In this document: positions 2,581 through 27,765 of the stretch, piece after piece
Layout: every line of letters starts with the position of its first letter
Numbering within the stretch: the first letter of the stretch is position 1
Assembly (NCBI GenBank): GCA_028101545.1
Contig: JAOHKZ010000004.1
Location: forward strand, 29,313 to 93,312
Length of the DNA stretch: 64,000 nucleotides
Direction: 5' to 3'
From: Opitutales bacterium
Lineage (GTDB): Bacteria; Verrucomicrobiota; Verrucomicrobiia; Opitutales; Seribacteraceae
Program-made: the position numbers and the translations under genes
The notes under the pieces: model-generated
Told to the model about the DNA's origin: nothing
What the model saw: the letters and a program-made list of their open reading frames with translations, nothing else
Databases searched by the model: none

Positions 2581-4034
2581 GGAAGGTTTTTGGCAATCAT
2601 TTTATCAATATATCCCTGCTCGATGTCTTGTTGACTGGGAATCAACTTTCCATGTGGGTCTGTTCTTGGGTTTGAAAGAATCCGTTCAATTTTTCGAACG
2701 GTTTCATCCCCCAATACATGTTCGATTTTTTCTGCGTCTTCATGTACATGATCGGCAGCGTATTGAACTTCATTGGTTAGGTAAAGTTCCCAAAGACGAT
2801 GGTTCCGGACAATCCGGCATGCTTCACTCCACCCAGTTGGGGAGAGGGACAGGGTGTTTTCACTTGGCAGCGTTTTGTCTTTAACGGGAAGAAGAAAGGC
2901 AAAATCCTTATTAACTAAATGAATAGCCTCTTGGTACATTTCTGGCATACTTATCCTTCTTCTCTTGGCAAGATTGCCAAGTCGTACAGTGTCTCTGGAA
3001 AATTTATTCCATTCCAATTCCTGATAAACCGCCTTTAAAGTATTTTCCAATGCAATTTTACGCTCCTTTCCACGCAAACGTAGCCCCTTAAATAGAAGTC
3101 CATTTTCCGGGTGTAAGAAAAGTACGAGAATAAATAATAGAGTGGAAGTTAAAGCAATAAGCGGACCTGTTGGCAACTGACTGCCAAGGAATGAAAGGTA
3201 GGAACCAATTACCCCAGCTACCATTCCCAATAGGGCAGACCACAAAAGAAGGCTTCTCATTTTTTGAGTAATAATAGAGGCTGTAGCGGCAGGTATAATA
3301 AGTAATGCGGAAACCAGGAGAACTCCTACTACCTGCAGTGAGGTTATTACCGAGAATGCCAATAGCATCCAAAGAAAATACTGTATAAGATCCACCGGAA
3401 GTCCAATGGAGCGAGCAAATCCTTGATCAAAACCGGTAACTAAGAGTTCTTTGTAAAAAATCGTGGTAATAAGGACTATCAGGATACATGAAATGCCCAT
3501 AGCCCAGACATCTTGATTTGAGAGTCCAGTAATTTGCCCAAAGAGATACCTGTCAATGCCTGACTGGTTTCCAAATTCCATCTTTTGAATTCTAGTCAGG
3601 AGACAAATGCCAAGAGCGTAAAACCCAGAAAGCACGAGGCCGAGTGCACTATCTAAACTTACCTTCGTGGTTTTTTTAAGTAAGGAAATTAAAAAAACTC
3701 CAAGAAAACCGGCGATCATTGCACCCACAATTATACTGATAGAATTTTTGGACTGACTCCATAAAAAGCCAACCGCAACTCCGGGTAAAACAGCATGGGA
3801 GAGGGTGTCTCCGAAAAGGGATAATTTTCGTGTCACAACAAACCCACCCATTAAGCCGCATCCCATTCCCATAAAAATAACCCCAAGGACAACAACTTGT
3901 ACCGAGTAATCTGCAAAAGAGAAAAATCTGTAGGTTTTAGAAATCAGGTTTACTTCATCATTTACCTGTGCTGCTTCCATATGGATGAATGGAAAGAGTA
4001 AAATCAGATAGAGAGGTAAACCTAAGATTTTCAA
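2577..4034 (-). CDS. metal ABC transporter permease with C-terminal DtxR/MntR-like domain
   Basis: N-terminal ABC-3 permease (GGFVVTRKLSLFGDTLSHAVLPGVAVGF). C-terminus RNHRLWELYL...DAEKIEHVLGDETVRKIERILSNPRTDPHGKLIP matches the DtxR-family regulator in the same window. Confidence 0.93.
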   Translation of the reverse strand: MKILGLPLYLILLFPFIHMEAAQVNDEVNLISKTYRFFSFADYSVQVVVLGVIFMGMGCGLMGGFVVTRKLSLFGDTLSHAVLPGVAVGFLWSQSKNSISIIVGAMIAGFLGVFLISLLKKTTKVSLDSALGLVLSGFYALGICLLTRIQKMEFGNQSGIDRYLFGQITGLSNQDVWAMGISCILIVLITTIFYKELLVTGFDQGFARSIGLPVDLIQYFLWMLLAFSVITSLQVVGVLLVSALLIIPAATASIITQKMRSLLLWSALLGMVAGVIGSYLSFLGSQLPTGPLIALTSTLLFILVLFLHPENGLLFKGLRLRGKERKIALENTLKAVYQELEWNKFSRDTVRLGNLAKRRRISMPEMYQEAIHLVNKDFAFLLPVKDKTLPSENTLSLSPTGWSEACRIVRNHRLWELYLTNEVQYAADHVHEDAEKIEHVLGDETVRKIERILSNPRTDPHGKLIPSQQDIEQGYIDKMIAKNLP

Positions 4035-15386: not shown

Positions 15387-17126
15387 CTAACCTAACAGCG
15401 AACTACTGGGTATTGCATCGAGTAGTTCAAGGGTGTATTCAGATTGTGGATTTTTGTATATTGTGTCGGCATTTCCATGCTCCATGACTTTTCCATTTTT
15501 CATGACAATCATGTCATCAGACATAAATTTTACTACACTTAGATCGTGGGAAATAAAGAGGTAGGTTAGATTCCTTCTTTGCTGGAGTTGACGCAGTAAA
15601 TTAAGTACCTGTGCCTGTACCGAGACATCCATTGCACTTACACATTCATCGCAGACTATGAATTCCGGTTCAACCGCAAGGGCCCTGGCCACACTGATTC
15701 TCTGTCTTTGTCCGCCAGAAAATTCGTGCGGGTAACGAAGTAGAAACTCAGCTCCCAGACCAACTTCTTCAAGTAAAGACACAATACGGTCACGTCGCTC
15801 GGATTGATTGATGCCAATCTTATGAACGAGCATAGGTTCAGTGAGAGCCTGTTCAATTGTTTGGCGAGGATTGAGTGATGCGTAGGGATCCTGGAAGATA
15901 ATCTGCATACGTTTTCGAAAGGGTAGCATTTCTGGCTGGCTTAGTTTAGTCAGTTCATTTTTATCATAGAGAATGGAACCAGATTTAGTTTCCTGTAGTC
16001 TGAGGATGGCCCGTCCGAGTGTTGTCTTGCCGCAACCGGATTCTCCAACAAGTCCAAGTGTACGCCCTCTCGTAATTTGAAGATCAATACCGTCGACTGC
16101 CTTAACTGTTTTGTGTGGACTACTTAGAAAACCACCCCCTGAATGAAAATGAACTTGAAGTGCACTTACTTGTAGAAGGGAAGTGAGAGTAGCTTTTTCC
16201 TCCTTGTCGCTGTTTACTTCACTGGTTAGCTTGGCCAGTCTGTCTTCTGCGTTCGGATGATCACTAAGAGTATAAGAACCGTCTTCTTCAATCTTGGTTT
16301 GAAGAAAATCCTCCACTGTGGGCAGGATTCTATATTGGGTCTCAAGAGTGGGCCTACACGCGAGCAATCCTTTTACATAGGGATGAGATGGATTTTTAAA
16401 GAGGTCTTGGGTATTTCCCTGTTCAACAATTTTCCCCCGGTACATCACTACAACACGGTCAGCAAGTTCAGCTACGACTCCAAGGTCATGGGTTACGAAA
16501 AGAACCGCGACTCCGAGGTCATCTTTGAGGTCCCGAAGAATTTTTAGGATTCGGGCCTGTACTGTTACATCGAGTGCGGTAGTGGGTTCGTCAGCCAGCA
16601 AAAGATCAGGCTTGGTCACCAAAGCCATCGCGATCATCACCCGCTGTCGCATTCCACCTGAAAATTCATGAGGATAAGAACGGGCTCTTGCTTCAGCGTC
16701 CCGTATCCCGACTTTTGTCATCATCTCAATTGCCCGAGCTTCTGCGGTTGCCCGAGAGACATTTTCGTGAATAAGAATGGGTTCGGTGATTTGATCAAGA
16801 ATTCTAAGGTATGGGTTGAGGCAACTCATTGGATCCTGAAAGATCATCGATATCCGCTTTCCTCTGATTGCCCGGAGGAGTGGTTGTGATAAGTCGAGGA
16901 GTTCCTCACCATCAAAGGTAACCGTTCCTCCCTCCACCTTTGCAGGTGGCTGAGGTAGGAGTCCCAGCATGGTATGGCAAGTTACGGATTTCCCGGAACC
17001 CGACTCCCCGACCACTCCGACGATTTCCCCTTTATCAATTGAAAAGCTGATATCATCGACTGCCCGATTTGTACCCCCACGAGTATGGAAGTATGTTTTG
17101 AGATTCTTTATTTTTAGTAAACTCAT
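15387..17126 (-). CDS. peptide ABC transporter ATPase, two fused NBDs (DppD-DppF type)
   Basis: Two Walker A ([16 protein letters not shown]), two signatures ([30 protein letters not shown]). Confidence 0.96.
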
Positions 17127-18070
17127 CAGTCTTTAGCAGCTTTTACATCAAGTGCATCCCGAAGTCCGTCACCGAGGAAATTGAGAGAGAAGAGGGTGAG
17201 GGAAAAGAAAAGGCCAGGTAATAGGAGCAGTTGGACTTCTGTTTCCAAAAAATTAGCTCCTTCTTTAATAAGAACACCCCAGGAGCTATTTGGGGATTCC
17301 ACCCCAAGGCCGAGGAAAGAAAGAATGGCCTCATACATGATAAACCCGGGGACAGTGAGGGTGGAATATACAACCGTGGGGCCAAGAACATTTGGAATAA
17401 TATGCCGAAAAAGGATTCGCCATTTACTGTAGCCTAGGGCAACTGCTGCCTCCACAAATTCGCGTTCTTTTATACTCATTACTTGTGCTCGTACAATTCG
17501 CGAAAGGGTGAGCCACCCTAAAAGACCAAGAGCAAAGAAAAGCGGGACAATATTAGTTAGTCGCCCAGTGAATTCTTTATCCCAGTTTAAGTTTACCACA
17601 ATCCAACGAGTGGCATCCCCTGACCAGTCGCTCAGGGTTGCCTGTAGAACGATCACCAAAACCAAGAAGGGAATGGCGAGCAATGTGTCAACAATACGCA
17701 TCATAATTGCATCCGTTCGACCACCGGCAAAACCGGAAACCGCTCCGTATACAATTCCAATTACTACTGAAACCGAGGTGGCTATTAAGCCAACAAGAAT
17801 AGACACTTGTCCGCCGTATAGTATTCGTGCAAATAGGTCACGCCCAAGGGCATCAGTGCCAAACCAATGTTCTTTCGATGGAGGTGCAAATTTATTGGTT
17901 AAGTTTACTAGGTTTGGATTGGTACAAAACCAAGCGAAAATAAAACAAAGCGAGAACATGACAACGATCACTCCGAATCCACCCATAGCGAATTTATTTT
18001 TTGCCATACGGGACCTCGCGTCTTTCCAAAGAGAGGAGCCTTGCGGAATAGTTGCTGTTTTTTCAATCAT
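17126..18070 (-). CDS. peptide ABC transporter permease (OppC/DppC type)
   Basis: HWFGTDALGRDLFARILYGGQVSILVG; EAAVALGYSKWRILFRHIIPN. Confidence 0.95.
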   Translation of the reverse strand: MIEKTATIPQGSSLWKDARSRMAKNKFAMGGFGVIVVMFSLCFIFAWFCTNPNLVNLTNKFAPPSKEHWFGTDALGRDLFARILYGGQVSILVGLIATSVSVVIGIVYGAVSGFAGGRTDAIMMRIVDTLLAIPFLVLVIVLQATLSDWSGDATRWIVVNLNWDKEFTGRLTNIVPLFFALGLLGWLTLSRIVRAQVMSIKEREFVEAAVALGYSKWRILFRHIIPNVLGPTVVYSTLTVPGFIMYEAILSFLGLGVESPNSSWGVLIKEGANFLETEVQLLLLPGLFFSLTLFSLNFLGDGLRDALDVKAAKD

Positions 18071-18074
18071 GCCC

Positions 18075-19004
18075 CTAATTCGTCCCCCCTGTATGCCTCA
18101 CGCGTGGGTCCAATAATCCGGTTAGCAGGTCGGCAAGTAGGTTCATAACAACAATCAGAAACCCGAAAAAAAGTGATAGTCCGAGAAGAAGAAATTCATC
18201 TCTTGTAGTGGCTGCATTGACGAAGTGTTGACCCATGCCCGGAACCTGAAAGATTGTTTCCACAATAAATGATCCGCTTATTAAAGCAGCAAAAGCGGGA
18301 CCAAGGTAAGCGACTGCAGGGAGGAGCCCACCACGTAGAGTGTGTTTAAGAATAACTTGAATAGGTGATACTCCTTTGGCACGAGCCGTTCGAACAAAAT
18401 CCTGGGATAGGACTTCAAGGATTCCCCCTCGGGTCAGTCGGGCCAAATAAGCGGCAGAAACCAAACCCAGTGTAAAGGAAGGAAGAAGGATATCCTCTAG
18501 GTTTCCCCAGCCCGCAACTTTGAGTCCCGGTATATGAGCGGCCACATAGATCTGCAGTAGCGGGCCTATCGTGAAAGAAGGAATACATATACCCACCATG
18601 GCCACGGTCATACAGACCCAATCTATCCAACTATTTTTCCGAACGGCAGAAAGAATTCCAATGGGTACTCCTATTCCGATAGCGAATCCTAATGCACAAA
18701 GTCCCAGGATAAGGGAATTCGGAAAAGATTGGGTTATAATATCGATCACTGGTCTTCCTTTACTGGTCGAAATTCCAAAAGAACCCTCGGTTATAATATT
18801 TTTTGGATAAGCCAGGTATTGTTCCCAGATAGGTTTATCTAAGCCATATAGTTTACGTATATTCGCTTTGGTCTCTGCTGAGATATTTTTTTCAGAAGTG
18901 AAGGGTTCCCCGGGCATAGCCTTTGCGAGAAAAAAAGTAATGGTATAAAGGGCAAATAAAACAAGCACCCCTTGTAGTAAACGATCAATGAGAAAGCGTG
19001 GCAC
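18075..19004 (-). CDS. peptide ABC transporter permease (OppB/DppB type)
   Basis: FLIDRLLQGVLVLFALYTITFFLAKAMPGEPF; FVRTARAKGVSPIQVILKHTLRGGLLP. Track ORF begins at 19280 inside the upstream gene; GTG 19004 fits the family N-terminus. Confidence 0.9.
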   Translation of the reverse strand: MPRFLIDRLLQGVLVLFALYTITFFLAKAMPGEPFTSEKNISAETKANIRKLYGLDKPIWEQYLAYPKNIITEGSFGISTSKGRPVIDIITQSFPNSLILGLCALGFAIGIGVPIGILSAVRKNSWIDWVCMTVAMVGICIPSFTIGPLLQIYVAAHIPGLKVAGWGNLEDILLPSFTLGLVSAAYLARLTRGGILEVLSQDFVRTARAKGVSPIQVILKHTLRGGLLPAVAYLGPAFAALISGSFIVETIFQVPGMGQHFVNAATTRDEFLLLGLSLFFGFLIVVMNLLADLLTGLLDPRVRHTGGTN

Positions 19005-19008
19005 TCTA

Positions 19009-20982
19009 TCAGTCCTTCCTGTTTTTTGAACCCGGTTCCAAGCGGAGAAACTTATACGGGTGGTTATCGAGGAGAAGTGGATTCCAACCCTTAACATCGG
19101 GGTGGAGGAGATAATTACGGGTATACCAGTAAACCGGGAGAATAGGGCGTTCCTTAAGAAAAAGGGATTCTGCTTCAGCGAGCAATTCATAGCGCTTGGT
19201 AGCTTCTCCGGTTTGAGCGGCCATACCAAGAATTTTCTCAAATTCTTCGTTGTGCCAACCGGTGCGGTTGTTGCCGACACCTTTCATCCACATATCAAGA
19301 AAGGTAAGGGGGTCCATATAATCTCCAATCCAACCGCCTGCTGCCATGTCATAATCCTTATCAAACATTGCAGTGATGTAGGATGTCCATTCCATTTGTT
19401 TGATCTTAATCGTAGCTCCGAGGTGTTCTTTCCACATCGCCTGTAGTGCTTCTGCGGTTACTTTGGAGGATTCTTTATCAGTCGTTAAAAATTCAATATC
19501 TGGGAGTCCCTTACCTCCTGGATACCCGGCATCGGCAAGCAATTTACGGGCAAGTTCAGGGTCAAAGGTTACGACATCTGATGCGGGATAATTGCCAAAT
19601 GGAGGGACCAGTCCACTTGCAGGCTTCTGCCCACCTTTTAATACATTATCGATTAAGGATTTCTGATTCAGTGCGTAGGAGAAAGCAAGGCGTACACGAG
19701 GATCGGTAAAGGGTTCATTGGACACATTAGTACGAATAAAATAAGTGCCAAGGTAGAGCTCGCTCCTCACATGTTCCGGATATTTTTGCCGGGAATATTC
19801 AATAAGTTCAGACGCAATGGTGTAAGTAACATGCATTTGTCCGTCAAAATACATTCGGTCCTCGGTGTAAAGATTACCAATAGGTAAAAAGCGAATACCA
19901 TTTATGCCCACATTTTCTTTGTCCCAATAATTTGGGTTACGGCTCACTTCAATGTGATCGTTGAAGCGCCATGATTGTAACACAAAGGCACCATTACCAA
20001 CAAGGTTTTCAGGCTTGGTCCATTTTGTAAAACGTTCGCCTACATTGCCATGCTGTAAAACGACATGTTTGGGAACAGGGTACCAGGTATAATGTTTGGT
20101 AATCTCAGGTAAAAAAGGGATTGGTGAATTGAGCTTCACTTTTAGGGTATGTTTGTCAGGAGCTGTGGCACCAAAGTCAATAAGTTCCCATAGGTCTTTC
20201 AATTCATTTACTTTTAGGTTTCCCCGGTTTGTTTTTTCAAAAGTTAGGTTTTTTAAAATAAGGGAGCGTCGAATCTTAGTTGAGAGATCAGAGGGCCATT
20301 TGAAAAGCGATGGTTTATCCAGAAGTTTTTCGAGTTCAGTCAGGTTTAACTTGTCCAGACCGATGAAATTAAAAGAACCCTCCTCCGCTTTTTCATTGGG
20401 ACCAAAGTCTACCTTCTTAAGGGAATCCCACCATTCTTCTGTAAAATTGGAGTCTGAGCGAAAAAGCAGGTAGGAACGCTGAGACTTATGGTAAAATTCA
20501 GCATCCTTTATGTAGTACAGCATAAAAGAATAATCTGAAGCTAAAGCAGGTGTGAGAAGCCTACGGAACGAGAAAAGAAAGTCATCCGCGGTCAGGGCTT
20601 CTCCATCAGACCATTTAGCATTTTTACGAAGTTCAAAGACCCATTCATCTGGTCGTTTCGGATTCACGGGGTACCATTTCTCTGCGACCCCGGGAACCGC
20701 AATTCCGTCTTTGGATGGATGGGCTTCGACCAACCCTTCGAAAAGGGAACGAATGACATTGCTTTCAAGAACACCGCTCACGATATGTGGGTCAAGTCCC
20801 TTTGGTTCTCCACTGTTGCCCATAATGAGTATCCCGTCACGGGATGCGTCATCCACACTGCTCGTTTCTCCGCATGAAATTATCAGCAGAGAAAAGAAAA
20901 CCATCAGGAAACAATTTCCAATGCTAGGTAAAAGTGCTAAGCTGTAATTTGTTTTTTTGATCCCTAAAAAAGGGACGAGCAC
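19009..20982 (-). CDS. peptide ABC transporter substrate-binding lipoprotein (OppA type)
   Basis: Lipobox LLIISCGE; GNSGEPKGLDPHIVSG; EKWYPVNPKRPDEWVFELRKNAKWSDGEALTADDFLFSFRR. GTG start; the exact start is uncertain. Confidence 0.93.
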   Translation of the reverse strand: MLVPFLGIKKTNYSLALLPSIGNCFLMVFFSLLIISCGETSSVDDASRDGILIMGNSGEPKGLDPHIVSGVLESNVIRSLFEGLVEAHPSKDGIAVPGVAEKWYPVNPKRPDEWVFELRKNAKWSDGEALTADDFLFSFRRLLTPALASDYSFMLYYIKDAEFYHKSQRSYLLFRSDSNFTEEWWDSLKKVDFGPNEKAEEGSFNFIGLDKLNLTELEKLLDKPSLFKWPSDLSTKIRRSLILKNLTFEKTNRGNLKVNELKDLWELIDFGATAPDKHTLKVKLNSPIPFLPEITKHYTWYPVPKHVVLQHGNVGERFTKWTKPENLVGNGAFVLQSWRFNDHIEVSRNPNYWDKENVGINGIRFLPIGNLYTEDRMYFDGQMHVTYTIASELIEYSRQKYPEHVRSELYLGTYFIRTNVSNEPFTDPRVRLAFSYALNQKSLIDNVLKGGQKPASGLVPPFGNYPASDVVTFDPELARKLLADAGYPGGKGLPDIEFLTTDKESSKVTAEALQAMWKEHLGATIKIKQMEWTSYITAMFDKDYDMAAGGWIGDYMDPLTFLDMWMKGVGNNRTGWHNEEFEKILGMAAQTGEATKRYELLAEAESLFLKERPILPVYWYTRNYLLHPDVKGWNPLLLDNHPYKFLRLEPGSKNRKD

Positions 20983-21079
20983 TTGCTACTTGGCAAGCAA
21001 AAGAATTCGCTAAATTGAAAAGAGCCAAGATTTGACTTTGCACCGTCTGTAAGAAATCGCTAGGTAAGAAATCCGTTAC

Positions 21080-22504
21080 ATGCGAGATTACTTTATTAGA
21101 AGACTTATATTGATTCCTCCAACTCTTCTTGGAATTAGCATCATGGTCTTTGCAATTACCCGACTGGCCCCTGGTGGCCCGCTTGAGCAGGCAATGATGC
21201 AAATGCAGCAGGTTTCTGAAGAGGGGGGCGGTGGTTTAAGTTCTGGTTCAGATCAGGCTTTATCTGAGGATCAACTTGAACAGATGAAGCGATTGTACGG
21301 TTTTGATAAACCCCATTGGGAAGCTTATTTAATCTGGCTTGGCGTTTTGCCCCGCGAAACTGAATTTCGGCAAATACGGTTTCTTGATAATGAACTTCGA
21401 TTAGCGGAGAGGGTAAGCCTGCCTAGTTTCAACTTGGTCGAGTTGGATTGGAACGGAGATGGATACCTTCAACGCCAGGAAGTGCCAGAGCATCTAAATA
21501 AATACATTGATTTCTCTCGTTTTGATCATAATCAGGATGGAGAGATTGATGCAGTAGAAGCGGACACTCCGGCAGCACGGATAGAAGGAGTCCGAGAGAA
21601 AATTGTTCTACAACGCGACGGACAGGGTGGAGTAAGGTTGGAAAACGAGTTGGACTTATTGGGAAATTGGAAGGTTCGTATGAAAGAAAGGGATCCCGAT
21701 AGCCCAAATAGAATTCCTGTAGCTGAACTCTTCATGACTCGATATGAGGGGGTTTTGCAGGGAAATTTTGGACAGTCTACCCGATATGGAGAACCGGTTC
21801 TCTCAGTAATTACCGAACGTTTGCCTGTATCCACTTACTTTGGTCTGCTTACCTTTTTAATCACCTATATTGTATGTATCCCTTTGGGTATCTTTAAAGC
21901 CGTTCGACATAACACATTATCTGATGATATTTCTTCCATACTTATCTTTGTCGGATATGCTGTACCAGGGTATGCACTGGGTTCGCTGTTGCTTTTGTTT
22001 TTCTCAGTTAAGCTCGACTGGTTGCCCATGGGAGGATTAACCAGCAGTGGATTTGATGAACTTTCCGCTTGGGAACAGGTTAAGGACTTGGCCATTCATA
22101 CTTTTCAGCCTCTATGTTGTTATTTGATTGGTGGATTTGCATTTGTAACCATGTTGATGAAAAACCACCTGATGGATAATCTGGCTTCGGATTATGTACG
22201 CACCGCAATGGCAAAAGGAGTTTCTTTTGGTGTAGCAGTGCGCAAACACGCACTGCGTAATTCGTTGGTTCCGTTAGCAACCAATGTGGGTCATCAGGTG
22301 ACTCTCTTTGTTACCGGATCATTTCTGATTGAGACGATTTTTGATATCGATGGCTTTGGACTGCTTGGTTTTAATTCAGTCATTGACCGGGATTATCCCG
22401 TTGTGATGGGCGTTCTTACGCTTTCCGCGACATTAATGCTGATCGGCAATGTGCTTTCCGATGCTCTCGTTGCCCTGGTGGACCCAAGGGTACGGTTCGA
22501 ATAA
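21080..22504 (+). CDS. yejB: YejB-like peptide ABC transporter permease with inserted EF-hand pair
   Basis: YejB-like ends (MRDYFIRRLILIPPTLLGISIMVFAITRLAPGGPLEQA; RLYGFDKPHWEAY; FVTGSFLIETIFDIDGFGLLGFNSVIDRDYPVVMG). EF-hands DWNGDGYLQRQE and DHNQDGEIDAVE lie between. Confidence 0.94.
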   Translation: MRDYFIRRLILIPPTLLGISIMVFAITRLAPGGPLEQAMMQMQQVSEEGGGGLSSGSDQALSEDQLEQMKRLYGFDKPHWEAYLIWLGVLPRETEFRQIRFLDNELRLAERVSLPSFNLVELDWNGDGYLQRQEVPEHLNKYIDFSRFDHNQDGEIDAVEADTPAARIEGVREKIVLQRDGQGGVRLENELDLLGNWKVRMKERDPDSPNRIPVAELFMTRYEGVLQGNFGQSTRYGEPVLSVITERLPVSTYFGLLTFLITYIVCIPLGIFKAVRHNTLSDDISSILIFVGYAVPGYALGSLLLLFFSVKLDWLPMGGLTSSGFDELSAWEQVKDLAIHTFQPLCCYLIGGFAFVTMLMKNHLMDNLASDYVRTAMAKGVSFGVAVRKHALRNSLVPLATNVGHQVTLFVTGSFLIETIFDIDGFGLLGFNSVIDRDYPVVMGVLTLSATLMLIGNVLSDALVALVDPRVRFE

Positions 22505-22506
22505 AA

Positions 22507-23577
22507 ATGATTAAGCTTAATCCACTAACCCTCAAAAAACTGCATCGATTTCGTTCGATTAAAAGAGGGTATTGGTCTTTCGTTATTCTGCTTTTCCTAT
22601 ATGTTTTCAGTTTAGCAGGTGAGCTTTTTGTCAATAAACGGGCCTTACTTGTTTCCTACCAAGGTGCCCTTTATTTTCCCACTTATGGCGAACAGATAAG
22701 CGGAAAGGAATTTGGATTGGATTATGATTACGAGGTTGATTATCGATCCTTACAAAAAAAATTCCAACGTGAGGAACTCGGTGATTGGGTAATTATGCCA
22801 GTCGTACCTTTTGGTCCCTACGAAATGGACTATGCAAATGAAGGCTCAACCGGTTTTTCTCCGCCCAATTGGAAAACTGGACATTTTTGCGGAACTGATA
22901 AAACCGAACGTGATGTTTTTGCCCGCCTGCTTTACGGATTCCGTATCGCAATGACTTTTTCCCTGGGTTACCTTTTTCTGACCTACCTAATTGCAATTGG
23001 AGCCGGCAGTGTAATGGGGTATTTTGGTGGTAAGACTGATATGATTGGATTACGCCTGGTTGAAATTTGGGCAAATGTTCCTTTTTTATATATGGTGATT
23101 ATCTTGGTTTCAGTAATGCCGGGTTGGTGGGGAGTTGGTTGGCAGGTATCCTCACTATTGTTCATCATGGTCCTTTTTTCATGGACGGGAATGACATACT
23201 ATATTCGGGCAGCAGTGTATAAAGAAAAAGCCCGTGATTATGTTTCCGCCGCCAAAGTAATTGGAGCCGGTCCTGCACGAATTATTTTTCGCCATTTACT
23301 GCCAAATGTAATTTCTACTCTCGTCACTTTTGCTCCTTTTACTATTGCCGCAGCTATTTCTTCGATTACAGCACTTGATTTTTTAGGTTATGGCTTACCC
23401 CCACCCACACCGAGTTGGGGTGAACTGCTCAAGCAGGCAGTAGGCAATCTCAAGACAGCTCCATGGATCGTCATTTCCACAGTCTCAGCACTTGTTTTAA
23501 CCCTCACACTAGTTACTTTTGTGGGGGAAGCAGTCAGGGAAGCTTTTGATCCAAAAAAATTCTCCACTTATGAATGA
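22507..23577 (+). CDS. yejE: YejE-like peptide ABC transporter permease
   Basis: ELFVNKRALLVSYQGALYFPTY...HFCGTDKTERDVFARLLYGFRIAMTFSLGYLFLTYLIAIGAGSVMGYFGGKTD; SAAKVIGAGPARIIFRHLLPN. Confidence 0.94.
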   Translation: MIKLNPLTLKKLHRFRSIKRGYWSFVILLFLYVFSLAGELFVNKRALLVSYQGALYFPTYGEQISGKEFGLDYDYEVDYRSLQKKFQREELGDWVIMPVVPFGPYEMDYANEGSTGFSPPNWKTGHFCGTDKTERDVFARLLYGFRIAMTFSLGYLFLTYLIAIGAGSVMGYFGGKTDMIGLRLVEIWANVPFLYMVIILVSVMPGWWGVGWQVSSLLFIMVLFSWTGMTYYIRAAVYKEKARDYVSAAKVIGAGPARIIFRHLLPNVISTLVTFAPFTIAAAISSITALDFLGYGLPPPTPSWGELLKQAVGNLKTAPWIVISTVSALVLTLTLVTFVGEAVREAFDPKKFSTYE

Positions 23578-25777
23578 TATGAAAAAAATAAAATTCTTTG
23601 TTTCTCCATTGGTTGCCTGCATCACGCTTTTTTTTCTGGGGTGTGAAGAACCAAAATTAAAACAACCCCGTGAAACCAAACCCGATCAATCACAAGAGAC
23701 TTCCAATAGTTCTGGTAAAGTGGACCGTGAGTTTACCCGTGAGCTTGCCCGCGAATTTGCAGCGGAATTTGTGAAGGAATTTGCCAAACAAATTAATCAC
23801 AAGGGGATCAGTTTAGATGCCAATCAATCTACGGGTGCATTCAAAAATTCAGTTTCGAAAACAGGCCTAGTTGATCCGGGCGGTAAGCCCCATCCTCTAT
23901 TAAGCCATTGTTCTGAGGATGTTCTTGAATTTTACCAAAAGAATGCGGATTGCTTTTCTATTTTATCACCCGAGGAGATTCCAAATGATTTAGAGTGGCA
24001 GGACGGCTCGAGCGAAAAAGAATTTTCTTCCACCAATGCCAAGAGGGGAGGGACTTTTCATGCGTATATGCGTGATTTTCCACGAACTCTCAGGACGATA
24101 GGCCCAGATGCAAATGGTGGATTCCGCAGCTATCTTTTGGATAATAATGTGATCGGGTTAACGCATGCCCATCCCAATTCTGATGGATATTACCCCGGCA
24201 CTGCAAATGAATGGGCGGTTGGGAATGATGGACGAACCGTTTATTTTCGTCTCGATTCCAATGCCCGTTTTAGTGATGGCAAACGGGTAAGGGCTTCGGA
24301 TTATTTTTTCTTTTTTTACTTCATGAGAAGCAAGCATATACAGGCACCCTGGTATAATGATTTTTACGGCAAGGATAAGTTTCAAAAAGTTACTTTATAT
24401 GATGAACAGACCCTTTCGATTACATTCTACAAAGCAAAACCAGATGTGGTGGAACGGGTTTCCATTCGTCCCAAACCAGAACATTTTTATTCAGAGTTGG
24501 GGGGAGAGTATTTAACCAAATACCAGTGGAAACCAGAGCCAACAACAGGTGCATATGTGGCATTGCCCGAAAATGTGGACAAGGGGAAATCGGTTACCTT
24601 GGTAAGGCAGAACAACTGGTGGGCTAATGATAAGCGGTTTTTTCGTAATCGTTTCAATCCCGACCAGGTCAAGGTCAGCGTGATTCGGGATAATGATAAA
24701 GCATTTGAAATCTTTCTTAAGGGACAGATAGATGCTTTTGGATTAGCCAAGACCGAATTTTGGTACGAAAAATTAGCAAATGATCATTCTTTGGTGAAAA
24801 ATGGATACCTGACCAAAGTTACTTTTTTTAACCAGGCCCCTCCTCCCAGTTATGCCCTCAGAATAAATTCCCAAAAGGCCCCTCTTGATAATCTTGATAT
24901 TCGCGTAGGCTTTCATCACGCAATGAATTTTGAACTCGTGCTTGAAAGAATATTTCGTGGAGATTTTGTACGCATGAATACGGTGGCGGATGGTTTTGGC
25001 GAAAGATCACACCCGTCCTTAAAGGCACGTGAATTTTCGGTGGATAAAGCCGTGGAAAGTTTTGCCAGAGCCGGGTATTCGAAAAGAGGAAAAGATGGAA
25101 TCCTGATAAATGGAAGGGGAGAAAAACTTTCCATTGAAATAATGACTGGATATAAACATTTTGAAGATGTTCTGGTCGTACTGAAGGAAGAAGCCAAAAA
25201 AGCTGGATTAGAAATTAAGCTAAAAGTACTTGAGCAAACCGCAGCCTGGAAAATGGCAAATGAAAAAAATCATCAGGTCATCTTTTCCGCGTTCGGTACT
25301 TTTGTGGAGCTTTTTCCCAGGTTTTGGGAACCTTTTCATTCTGATAATGCGTACCAGGAAAAAGGTGATTTAAAGTACCTAGAAAATGGAGATTTAAAAG
25401 CCGGTCTTACCACCAAGACGAGTACCAATAATTTCACTCAAACTGCGGTTCGTGAATTAGACCATTTGATTAATCAATACCGAGAAGAGGAGGACCTCAT
25501 CCAGATAACCAAAATGGCTCACCGCTTAAGTAAAATAATTCATGATCATGCTGTCTGGGTGCCAGCCTGGAAAAAACCCTGGCTTCGTGTGGGGCATTGG
25601 AGCTGGCTTCAGTTTCCTGATGACTGGGGGCCCAAAGAATCAACAGATTACGAGGAATTTCAGGTTTTTTGGATTGATACTCAAGAGAAGAAAAAAATCC
25701 TCAATGCAATGGAAAAAGGGGAACCCGTTTCTTCACAGCCCACCGTTCGTGAATACAAAAAGTATGAGTCAAAATAA
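23570..25777 (+). CDS. peptide ABC transporter substrate-binding lipoprotein (YejA-like)
   Basis: Lipobox FFLGCEE; AKRGGTFHAYMRDFPRTLRTIGPDANGGFRSYLLDNN; WAVGNDGRTVYFRLDSNARFSDGKRVRASDYFFFFYFMRS. Start at ATG 23570 overlaps the yejE stop. Confidence 0.92.
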   Translation: MNDMKKIKFFVSPLVACITLFFLGCEEPKLKQPRETKPDQSQETSNSSGKVDREFTRELAREFAAEFVKEFAKQINHKGISLDANQSTGAFKNSVSKTGLVDPGGKPHPLLSHCSEDVLEFYQKNADCFSILSPEEIPNDLEWQDGSSEKEFSSTNAKRGGTFHAYMRDFPRTLRTIGPDANGGFRSYLLDNNVIGLTHAHPNSDGYYPGTANEWAVGNDGRTVYFRLDSNARFSDGKRVRASDYFFFFYFMRSKHIQAPWYNDFYGKDKFQKVTLYDEQTLSITFYKAKPDVVERVSIRPKPEHFYSELGGEYLTKYQWKPEPTTGAYVALPENVDKGKSVTLVRQNNWWANDKRFFRNRFNPDQVKVSVIRDNDKAFEIFLKGQIDAFGLAKTEFWYEKLANDHSLVKNGYLTKVTFFNQAPPPSYALRINSQKAPLDNLDIRVGFHHAMNFELVLERIFRGDFVRMNTVADGFGERSHPSLKAREFSVDKAVESFARAGYSKRGKDGILINGRGEKLSIEIMTGYKHFEDVLVVLKEEAKKAGLEIKLKVLEQTAAWKMANEKNHQVIFSAFGTFVELFPRFWEPFHSDNAYQEKGDLKYLENGDLKAGLTTKTSTNNFTQTAVRELDHLINQYREEEDLIQITKMAHRLSKIIHDHAVWVPAWKKPWLRVGHWSWLQFPDDWGPKESTDYEEFQVFWIDTQEKKKILNAMEKGEPVSSQPTVREYKKYESK
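23726..23785 (+). repeat. degenerate 12-bp tandem repeat, 5 copies, coding
   Basis: cgtgagtttacc/cgtgagcttgcc/cgcgaatttgca/gcggaatttgtg/aaggaatttgcc encodes REFT-RELA-REFA-AEFV-KEFA. Confidence 0.85.
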
Positions 25778-25795: not shown

Positions 25796-26794
25796 ATGAA
25801 CGACGAAGCCAAGACCGATGCATTATTGGAAGTTAAAGAGCTTTCTGTCTCTTTTGCCACCGATGAGGGGGAAGTGCAGGCATTGGACGCGGTCAATTTT
25901 GAAGTTAAGGATGGACAAACCCTTGGGCTCGTTGGGGAATCGGGATGCGGGAAAAGTGTTACCGCTCTTTCGGTTATGCGGCTCTTGCCACGACCGATTG
26001 GTAAAATAACTGGTGGGAGTATTGATTTTGGCGGGATGGATTTATTAAAACTAACCCCCGACGAAATGAGACAGATTCGGGGTAATGAAATTGGGATGAT
26101 TTTTCAGGAACCAATGAATGCACTAAATCCAGTCAGAACGATTGGGGATCAGATAAGTGAATCCTTTCTTCTCCATCAGAATATTACTCCCAAAGAAGCA
26201 TGGGAGAAATCAATTGATATGCTGGAGGACGTTGGGATTCCTGCACCGGAAAACCGGGTCTTTGAATATCCTCATCAGTTATCGGGTGGAATGAGGCAGC
26301 GTATCGTGATCGCTATTGCATTGGCTTGTAAGCCAAAACTTGTAATCGCTGATGAACCAACTACCGCATTGGATGTGACTGTGCAGTCACAAATTCTCGA
26401 TCTTCTACAAAGCATGAAAGAAAGACTCGGATCCTCTGTTCTTTTGATTACTCATGACTTAGGTGTTATAGCCGAAACCTGTGATGAAGTTTGCGTTATG
26501 TACGCGGGTAGGGTGGTTGAGCGAGCTTCCACTATAGATCTTTTTGCCAACCCGATACACGCCTATACACGCGGGTTACTTTCATCTATTCCCCGGCTTG
26601 ACGGGATTCCCAAAACTGTGCTTTCAACAATTGACGGAATGGTGCCCAGTCTTTCTGAACTTAATAAGGGCTGTCGTTTCGCTCCGAGAAGCGGGCTAGA
26701 GCATTCGGAGGAACAGCTTGCCCTGAGACCTCCCTTTACTGAAGTAAATCCAGGCCATTGGGTGGAGGCTTGTCCAGTATGCACAACACTATGA
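25796..26794 (+). CDS. peptide ABC transporter ATP-binding protein (DppD/OppD type)
   Basis: [54 protein letters not shown]-terminal oligopeptide-transporter Cys motif GCRFAPRSG...ACPVC. Confidence 0.95.
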
Positions 26795-27765
26795 CCGACC
26801 GGGAAAAATTGTTAGAAATAGAAGACCTTCGAGTTCATTTCCCGGTTCGGGGAGGGGTTTTTCGCAGGGCAGTGGGTGCCTGTAAGGCCGTGGACGGAGT
26901 AAGCCTGAGCTTGAAGAAAGGCCAGACCCTTGGCTTGGTTGGGGAATCAGGTTGCGGGAAATCTACCTTGGCGAAAGCGGTGGTTAAACTGGTCGAGCCA
27001 ACCAGTGGATCGATCAGATTTAAGAATCAGCAGGTTACCCAAAGCGAAGATGAGATTAATTTTCGAAAATCCGTTCAGATGGTTTTTCAGGATCCTGCGG
27101 AATCCTTAAATTCCCGAATGACTGTTGGGTCGATTATAGGTGAAGCCTTGGAAGTTCATAAAATCGGAGATAAAAGCGAGAGATTTGCGCGGGTCGAACA
27201 ATTACTCGAACAGGTGGGTTTGTCCAAGAGCGCGTCCCGGCGTTATCCTTTCGAATTTTCCGGCGGACAGCGACAAAGGATTGGTATCGCACGTGCCTTG
27301 GCATTAAAGCCTGAACTTTTGGTGCTGGATGAACCGGTCTCCGCTCTTGATGTTTCTGTGCAAAGCCAGGTGTTAAACCTGCTTATGGATTTACAGACTG
27401 AACTTCAGTTGACTTATCTTTTAATCGCTCACGACTTGGCAGTGGTTAAGCATGTCTCGGATATGATAGCGGTTATGTATCTTGGTAAAATTGTCGAACT
27501 GGGCCCTGCTGAGGAATTATATTCGAACCCGATTCATGCTTACACCAAGGCTTTGATCTCTGCGATTCCTATCCCTGACCCATCCAGGAAAAGAAAAAAA
27601 GTCATTATTCCTGGTGAAGTTCCCTCTCCCATCAATCCACCAGCGGGATGTGCGTTTGGTCATCGAATTAAACATCCCCTTTATCAGGAAAGCATCGATG
27701 GAAAAATTCAGTTTACGGAAGTCAGCAAAGAGCATTGGGTTCTTAAATGTCCATGTTGTGTGTAA
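26791..27765 (+). CDS. peptide ABC transporter ATP-binding protein (DppF/OppF type)
   Basis: [57 protein letters not shown] 26791 overlaps the upstream stop (ATGA). Confidence 0.94.

Follow-up and report, generated by a model that had tools for sequence, protein, structure and literature searches.

A predicted calcium-binding EF-hand pair in the periplasmic insert of a YejB-type permease co-occurs with an N-terminal helix of the cognate binding protein

The window analyzed here is a 64,000-nucleotide stretch of the genome of an Opitutales bacterium (GenBank assembly GCA_028101545.1, contig JAOHKZ010000004.1, positions 29,313 to 93,312 of the forward strand) that carries a plus-strand operon for a peptide-type ABC importer. 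The operon encodes a YejB-type permease, its YejE/OppC-type partner, a YejA-like substrate-binding protein (SBP) and two ATPases (Table 1). The permease frame is open over the entire extent given by the initial annotation and specifies 474 residues. Its C-terminal half matched BPD_transp_1 (1.4e-31; 110.1 bits against a Pfam cut-off of 26.4). The best-scoring NCBIfam model was that of YejB (NF011712), yet its score of 234.8 bits falls well below the curated cut-off of 445, and for this reason we refer to the protein as YejB-type rather than as YejB. A structure search with a model of the whole permease returned DppB/OppB entries first (1.5e-08), with a mean pLDDT for that model of 64 and low confidence in the membrane part. 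The importer resembles the DppABCDF and YejABEF systems of Escherichia coli in its permease fold, in the scoop region between TM1 and TM2 and in its SBP-dependent operon layout. It differs from YejABEF in its ATPases: YejABEF has a single fusion protein (the YejF model has 529 positions), whereas the window has two separate genes, each nearer to the OppD or OppF models.

Table 1. Features of the yej-type operon in the window, with coordinates in the window and the basis of each assignment.
Feature	Coordinates	Strand	Basis
YejB-type ABC permease, 474 aa, with TM1-TM2 insert	21080..22504	+	Open ORF; BPD_transp_1; DppB/OppB top in fold search
Scoop-motif region: helix 34-48, Gly-rich loop, helix 63-73	21179..21298	+	Predicted helices; homology to DppB scoop motif
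Predicted periplasmic insert, residues 89-222, missing from no-insert YejBs	21344..21745	+	Alignments with homologs
EF-hand module nested in the insert, residues 115-168	21422..21583	+	L026 and L028-L031 have the flanking strands but not the module
EF-hand loop 1, DWNGDGYLQRQE, residues 123-134	21446..21481	+	Sequence motif
EF-hand loop 2, DHNQDGEIDAVE, residues 149-160	21524..21559	+	Sequence motif
YejE/OppC-type partner permease, 356 aa	22507..23577	+	ORF and family models
YejA-like SBP with predicted lipoprotein signal, LGC at 23642	23570..25777	+	SBP_bac_5, 4.7e-43; lipobox by sequence
Conserved amphipathic N-terminal SBP segment, VDREFTRELAREFAAEFVKEFAKQ	23720..23791	+	Only in operons with an EF-hand YejB
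OppD- and OppF-like ATPases, two overlapping genes	25796..27765	+	ORFs; nearest models OppD and OppF

A divergent opp operon adjoins the yej operon (15387-20982, minus strand); in it OppD and OppF are fused into a protein of 579 aa and OppB is without an insert. Two further members of the window's family (L186 and L187) carry another type of yej operon at the corresponding site next to the divergent opp operon, with a YejB of about 450 aa and no EF hands. The occurrence of two yej operon types at one site (15387-22504 in the window) suggests that the operon was replaced in place. Both of these operons, along with those of L188 and L191, have YejE frames of 546-564 residues, which are extended at the N-terminus and hold about 80 inserted residues after a PYAPTGD stretch.

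Alignment of the permease with no-insert YejB homologs, which are about 340 aa in length, delimited an insert of about 134 residues between TM1 and TM2, close to the roughly 130 residues that had been proposed from the sequence. The short linker expected at this place in E. coli YejB was likewise borne out, in that positions 98-362 of the 364-position E. coli-type YejB model align with residues 213-474 of the window permease; neither the E. coli Dpp nor the Yej system has an insert or EF hands here. The insert is nested, being a lineage-wide beta domain that contains an EF-hand pair of about 50 residues. When the insert was modeled alone, confidence was higher (pLDDT of about 86 for most residues) and the EF module was placed between beta strands. 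A fold search of the PDB with this model returned no related fold (best E 0.56).

The location of the insert can be deduced from the DppB fold. The TM1-TM2 region of E. coli DppB lies in the periplasm and holds the scoop motif, two short helices and their joining loop, which is located between TM1 and alpha3 and, once the complex is assembled, fills the DppA cleft (PMC12136057). The predicted helices 34-48 and 63-73 of the window permease fall where the DppB scoop motif lies, and the insert starts downstream of them, after the next short predicted helix (79-87). By homology, therefore, the insert is expected to be periplasmic, as had been supposed for the loop at the outset, and to adjoin the scoop-motif region, which by the same homology would enter the SBP cleft. 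Among importer permeases, a precedent for an inserted, folded domain in the periplasm is the P2 loop of MalF in the maltose importer, which is involved in contact with the binding protein, although it belongs to a different permease family and a different loop and has no EF hands.

Both EF-hand loops lie exactly where the initial annotation placed them and are canonical twelve-residue loops with ligands at positions 1, 3, 5, and 12. The pattern D-x-[DN]-x-D-G-x-[ILV]-x-x-x-E matches twice in the permease, while none of 200,000 shuffles of the protein and none of 200,000 shuffles of the insert gave two matches, and at most 61 gave one. The Asp/Glu ligands were conserved in every module-bearing homolog examined. 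No variation was seen across 28 proteins at loop 1 positions 1, 5, and 12 or at loop 2 positions 1, 9, and 12, and only D or N occurs at position 3 of loop 1 and at positions 3 and 5 of loop 2, with positions 4 and 11 of the loops free to vary. The mean entropy of the eight ligand positions was 0.18 bits, compared with 1.42 bits for the rest of the insert, a value as low as which was not reached in any of 100,000 random draws (the figure for the window's clade alone was 0.00024). Position 2 of loop 1 is Trp in all 28 proteins, whereas position 2 of loop 2 is Q, R, T, H or another residue; the invariant Trp behind the first Asp of loop 1 may mark a contact surface.

The Pfam EF-hand models matched all 14 inserts tested at E < 0.01, with a best value of 2.3e-07. 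The window permease itself scored slightly under the gathering cut-offs of these models (24.5 versus 25.0, 23.4 versus 25.4, and 22.9 versus 25.9 bits), which, along with the short predicted flanking helices, would be compatible with degenerate loops that bind no metal. We regard such degeneracy as highly improbable, based on the fact that the ligands have been kept across two divergent clades in which other loop positions vary. The closest sequence relative of the insert profile in the PDB was lanmodulin (4.8e-06), another periplasmic protein with a closely spaced EF-hand pair, and this match led us to consider whether the site binds another metal, such as a lanthanide. Lanmodulin, however, is soluble and free-standing and has Pro at position 2 of the loop, whereas the window pair sits in a membrane permease and has the invariant Trp (loop 1) or variable residues (loop 2) at that position. 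Furthermore, in the incomplete genome from which the window derives no PQQ alcohol dehydrogenase scored above its family cut-off, and a lanthanide or other non-calcium site thus appears most unlikely. The best explanation of these data, judged from sequence, is that the EF-hand pair is genuine and is predicted to bind Ca2+.

EF-less inserts of about 80-124 residues occur at the same place in many Verrucomicrobiota YejBs. The EF module itself was found in 26 of the 42 genomes of the window's family of marine Opitutales. It was also present in G452, from a different family of the same order, and in three genomes of a single family in another order (G767, G843, and G927), and so occurs in two orders; samples of 388 genomes from the phylum and 384 from the class yielded no further cases. 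Contigs bearing the module are assigned to Opitutia, Opitutales, and Verrucomicrobiales, and many are from marine isolates or bins. In a tree of the YejB core the EF-bearing proteins form two groups separated by EF-less relatives (L026 and L028-L031), and the module must therefore have undergone at least two changes. Under strict parsimony, a history with two gains is preferred to one with a single gain and two losses. However, the insert regions of the second EF clade are 37-51% identical to that of the window, with a likeness that reaches beyond the ligands, and the insertion point is identical. Based on this common sequence and shared position, we lean toward transfer of the module, or a single origin with two subsequent losses, rather than two gains. 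Members of the second EF clade (L033, L034, L035, L042, and L182) have an additional YejB insert of about 90 residues, situated in the TM3-TM4 loop after PTGGFT.

The initial annotation envisaged a Ca2+-gated importer, in which binding and release of Ca2+ would turn transport on and off. EF hands are capable of switching and the module adjoins the SBP-docking scoop motif, both of which would suit a gate. The EF-less sisters, however, retain the beta part of the insert without the module, which indicates that Ca2+ binding here is dispensable for the persistence of this kind of transporter. In addition, the genomes are marine according to their records, and Ca2+ levels in the sea are high and constant; at the approximately 10 mM Ca2+ of seawater ordinary EF hands would stay loaded, and a structural or docking role fits this better than a switch does. 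We therefore do not retain the gating proposal, which we consider quite unlikely.

A second feature distinguishes the operons with an EF-hand YejB. Their SBPs have a conserved amphipathic helix (REFARELAREF-like) that lies about 20-30 residues past the predicted lipidated Cys, the lipid anchoring of the window SBP being predicted from its lipobox. In the dereplicated set the helix was present in all 27 EF-YejB operons with a readable SBP and in none of the 104 others, using a threshold of >5 bits which, like the class boundaries below, was picked after the data had been seen, and with L246 (5.9 bits, a different coil) set by hand to absent. The helix is more conserved than its surroundings, with a mean entropy of 0.84 bits compared to 2.1 before it and 2.8 after it. 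A profile built from the 474-aa clade alone also found the helix in the second EF clade, with scores of 9.1 and 30.4 bits, and of 5.7 bits for G452; the EF-less sister operons lack the helix. This presence of an extra SBP helix in all EF-YejB operons and in none of the others is a new observation.

Phylum-wide, the class of the YejB insert and that of the SBP N-terminus also agree. Short SBP N-termini accompany 55 of 59 no-insert YejBs and 16 of 17 YejBs with inserts of 79-87 residues, while a distinct coiled N-terminal SBP segment accompanies 25 of 27 of those with inserts of 93-124 residues. In a few lineages (L226, L229, and L234) a long insert goes together with a short SBP N-terminus; of these, L226 and L234 were scored by visual inspection and stand outside the counted set, and the tether length of L229 was set by hand to 55. 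After correction for relatedness, the correlation between insert length and SBP tether length fell from r = 0.65 (n = 74) to r = 0.30 (n = 131) when about 60 more loci were added, and since it shrank with the larger sample we do not base the argument for docking on it. Within the insert-bearing non-EF operons this correlation was not significant (p = 0.056), nor was there a significant relationship between insert length and either of two control lengths, the SBP core (r = -0.01) and the YejE loop (r = 0.22, p = 0.07). The SBP of L206 (gene near 3320) has an EF-hand-like loop, DGDENGSLDKNE, in its N-terminal coil, with a cognate YejB without EF hands. In another family of the order (L217-L220 and L223-L225), with YejB inserts of about 80 residues, the SBPs appear to be secreted rather than lipid-anchored.

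From the co-occurrence of the two features we propose that the EF-hand pair is a docking clasp for the SBP helix. The importer would be a Yej/Dpp-type peptide importer whose YejB has a periplasmic beta domain directly after the SBP-contacting scoop motif. The Ca2+-binding EF-hand pair nested in this domain would be constitutively loaded under marine conditions and would act as a folded docking element and not as a gate. Its most likely partner would be the amphipathic helix close to the N-terminus of the cognate SBP, itself lipid-anchored; by holding this helix the pair would keep the SBP near the pump. Contact of the loop with the binding protein had been suggested initially, and it is plausible given the adjacency of the scoop motif and the co-variation of the SBP; the physical contact itself we infer. 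Taken as a whole, a Ca2+-loaded pair that holds the SBP tether helix is the best explanation we can offer, and we put it forward tentatively, as a reading that could well be right but that we would stop short of calling probable.

The main rival to this proposal is a purely structural Ca2+ site that stabilizes the insert, which would touch the body of the SBP or nothing, with the helix serving, for example, as a membrane spacer co-inherited in the operon block. The conservation of the ligands requires no more than such a structural role, and EF-less sister operons exist. The EF module and the SBP helix each underwent two changes on the tree, few in number and coincident with operon lineages, and because two pairs cannot reach significance the pairing is weak as independent evidence; the link between module and helix could reflect shared operon history. 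A purely structural site would leave unexplained, however, why exactly the EF-less sisters lack the helix and why the helix itself is so strongly conserved, and we consider it possible but doubtful.

Ca2+-loaded EF-hand pairs serve protein docking in calmodulin-helix and dockerin-cohesin complexes, which provide an analogy for the proposed clasp. By sequence score the window module lies outside the dockerin family (Dockerin_1 at 12.3 bits, below the Pfam cut-off of 22.9). A more specific form of the docking proposal is a Ca2+-dependent clasp in which the EF pair would grip the SBP tether helix in the manner of calmodulin or dockerin and keep the SBP pre-docked, with other Verrucomicrobiota using other matched pairs of insert and N-terminal coil. 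This extended form strikes us as rather unlikely in its entirety. A role for SBP anchoring is established in another importer, as the lipid anchor of Neisseria meningitidis MetQ is required for maximal stimulation of MetNI (PMC8416018). MetQ is likewise lipid-anchored, but the parts of that report considered here describe attachment via lipid or signal sequence only and no EF-hand permease partner (PMC8416018).

In literature judged from titles and abstracts we found no description of an EF-hand pair in the permease of an ABC importer, and our analyses suggest a calcium-structured docking clasp on the outer face of the importer, previously undescribed for such systems. If the pair does grip the SBP tether, it would provide a concrete mechanism for retaining a lipid-anchored SBP in the vicinity of its importer. 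It would also offer a small module that can be expressed, depends on calcium and has a likely partner that can already be named. More broadly, the phylum-wide correspondence between permease inserts and SBP N-termini would show in what way peptide importers have been rebuilt in the Verrucomicrobiota.
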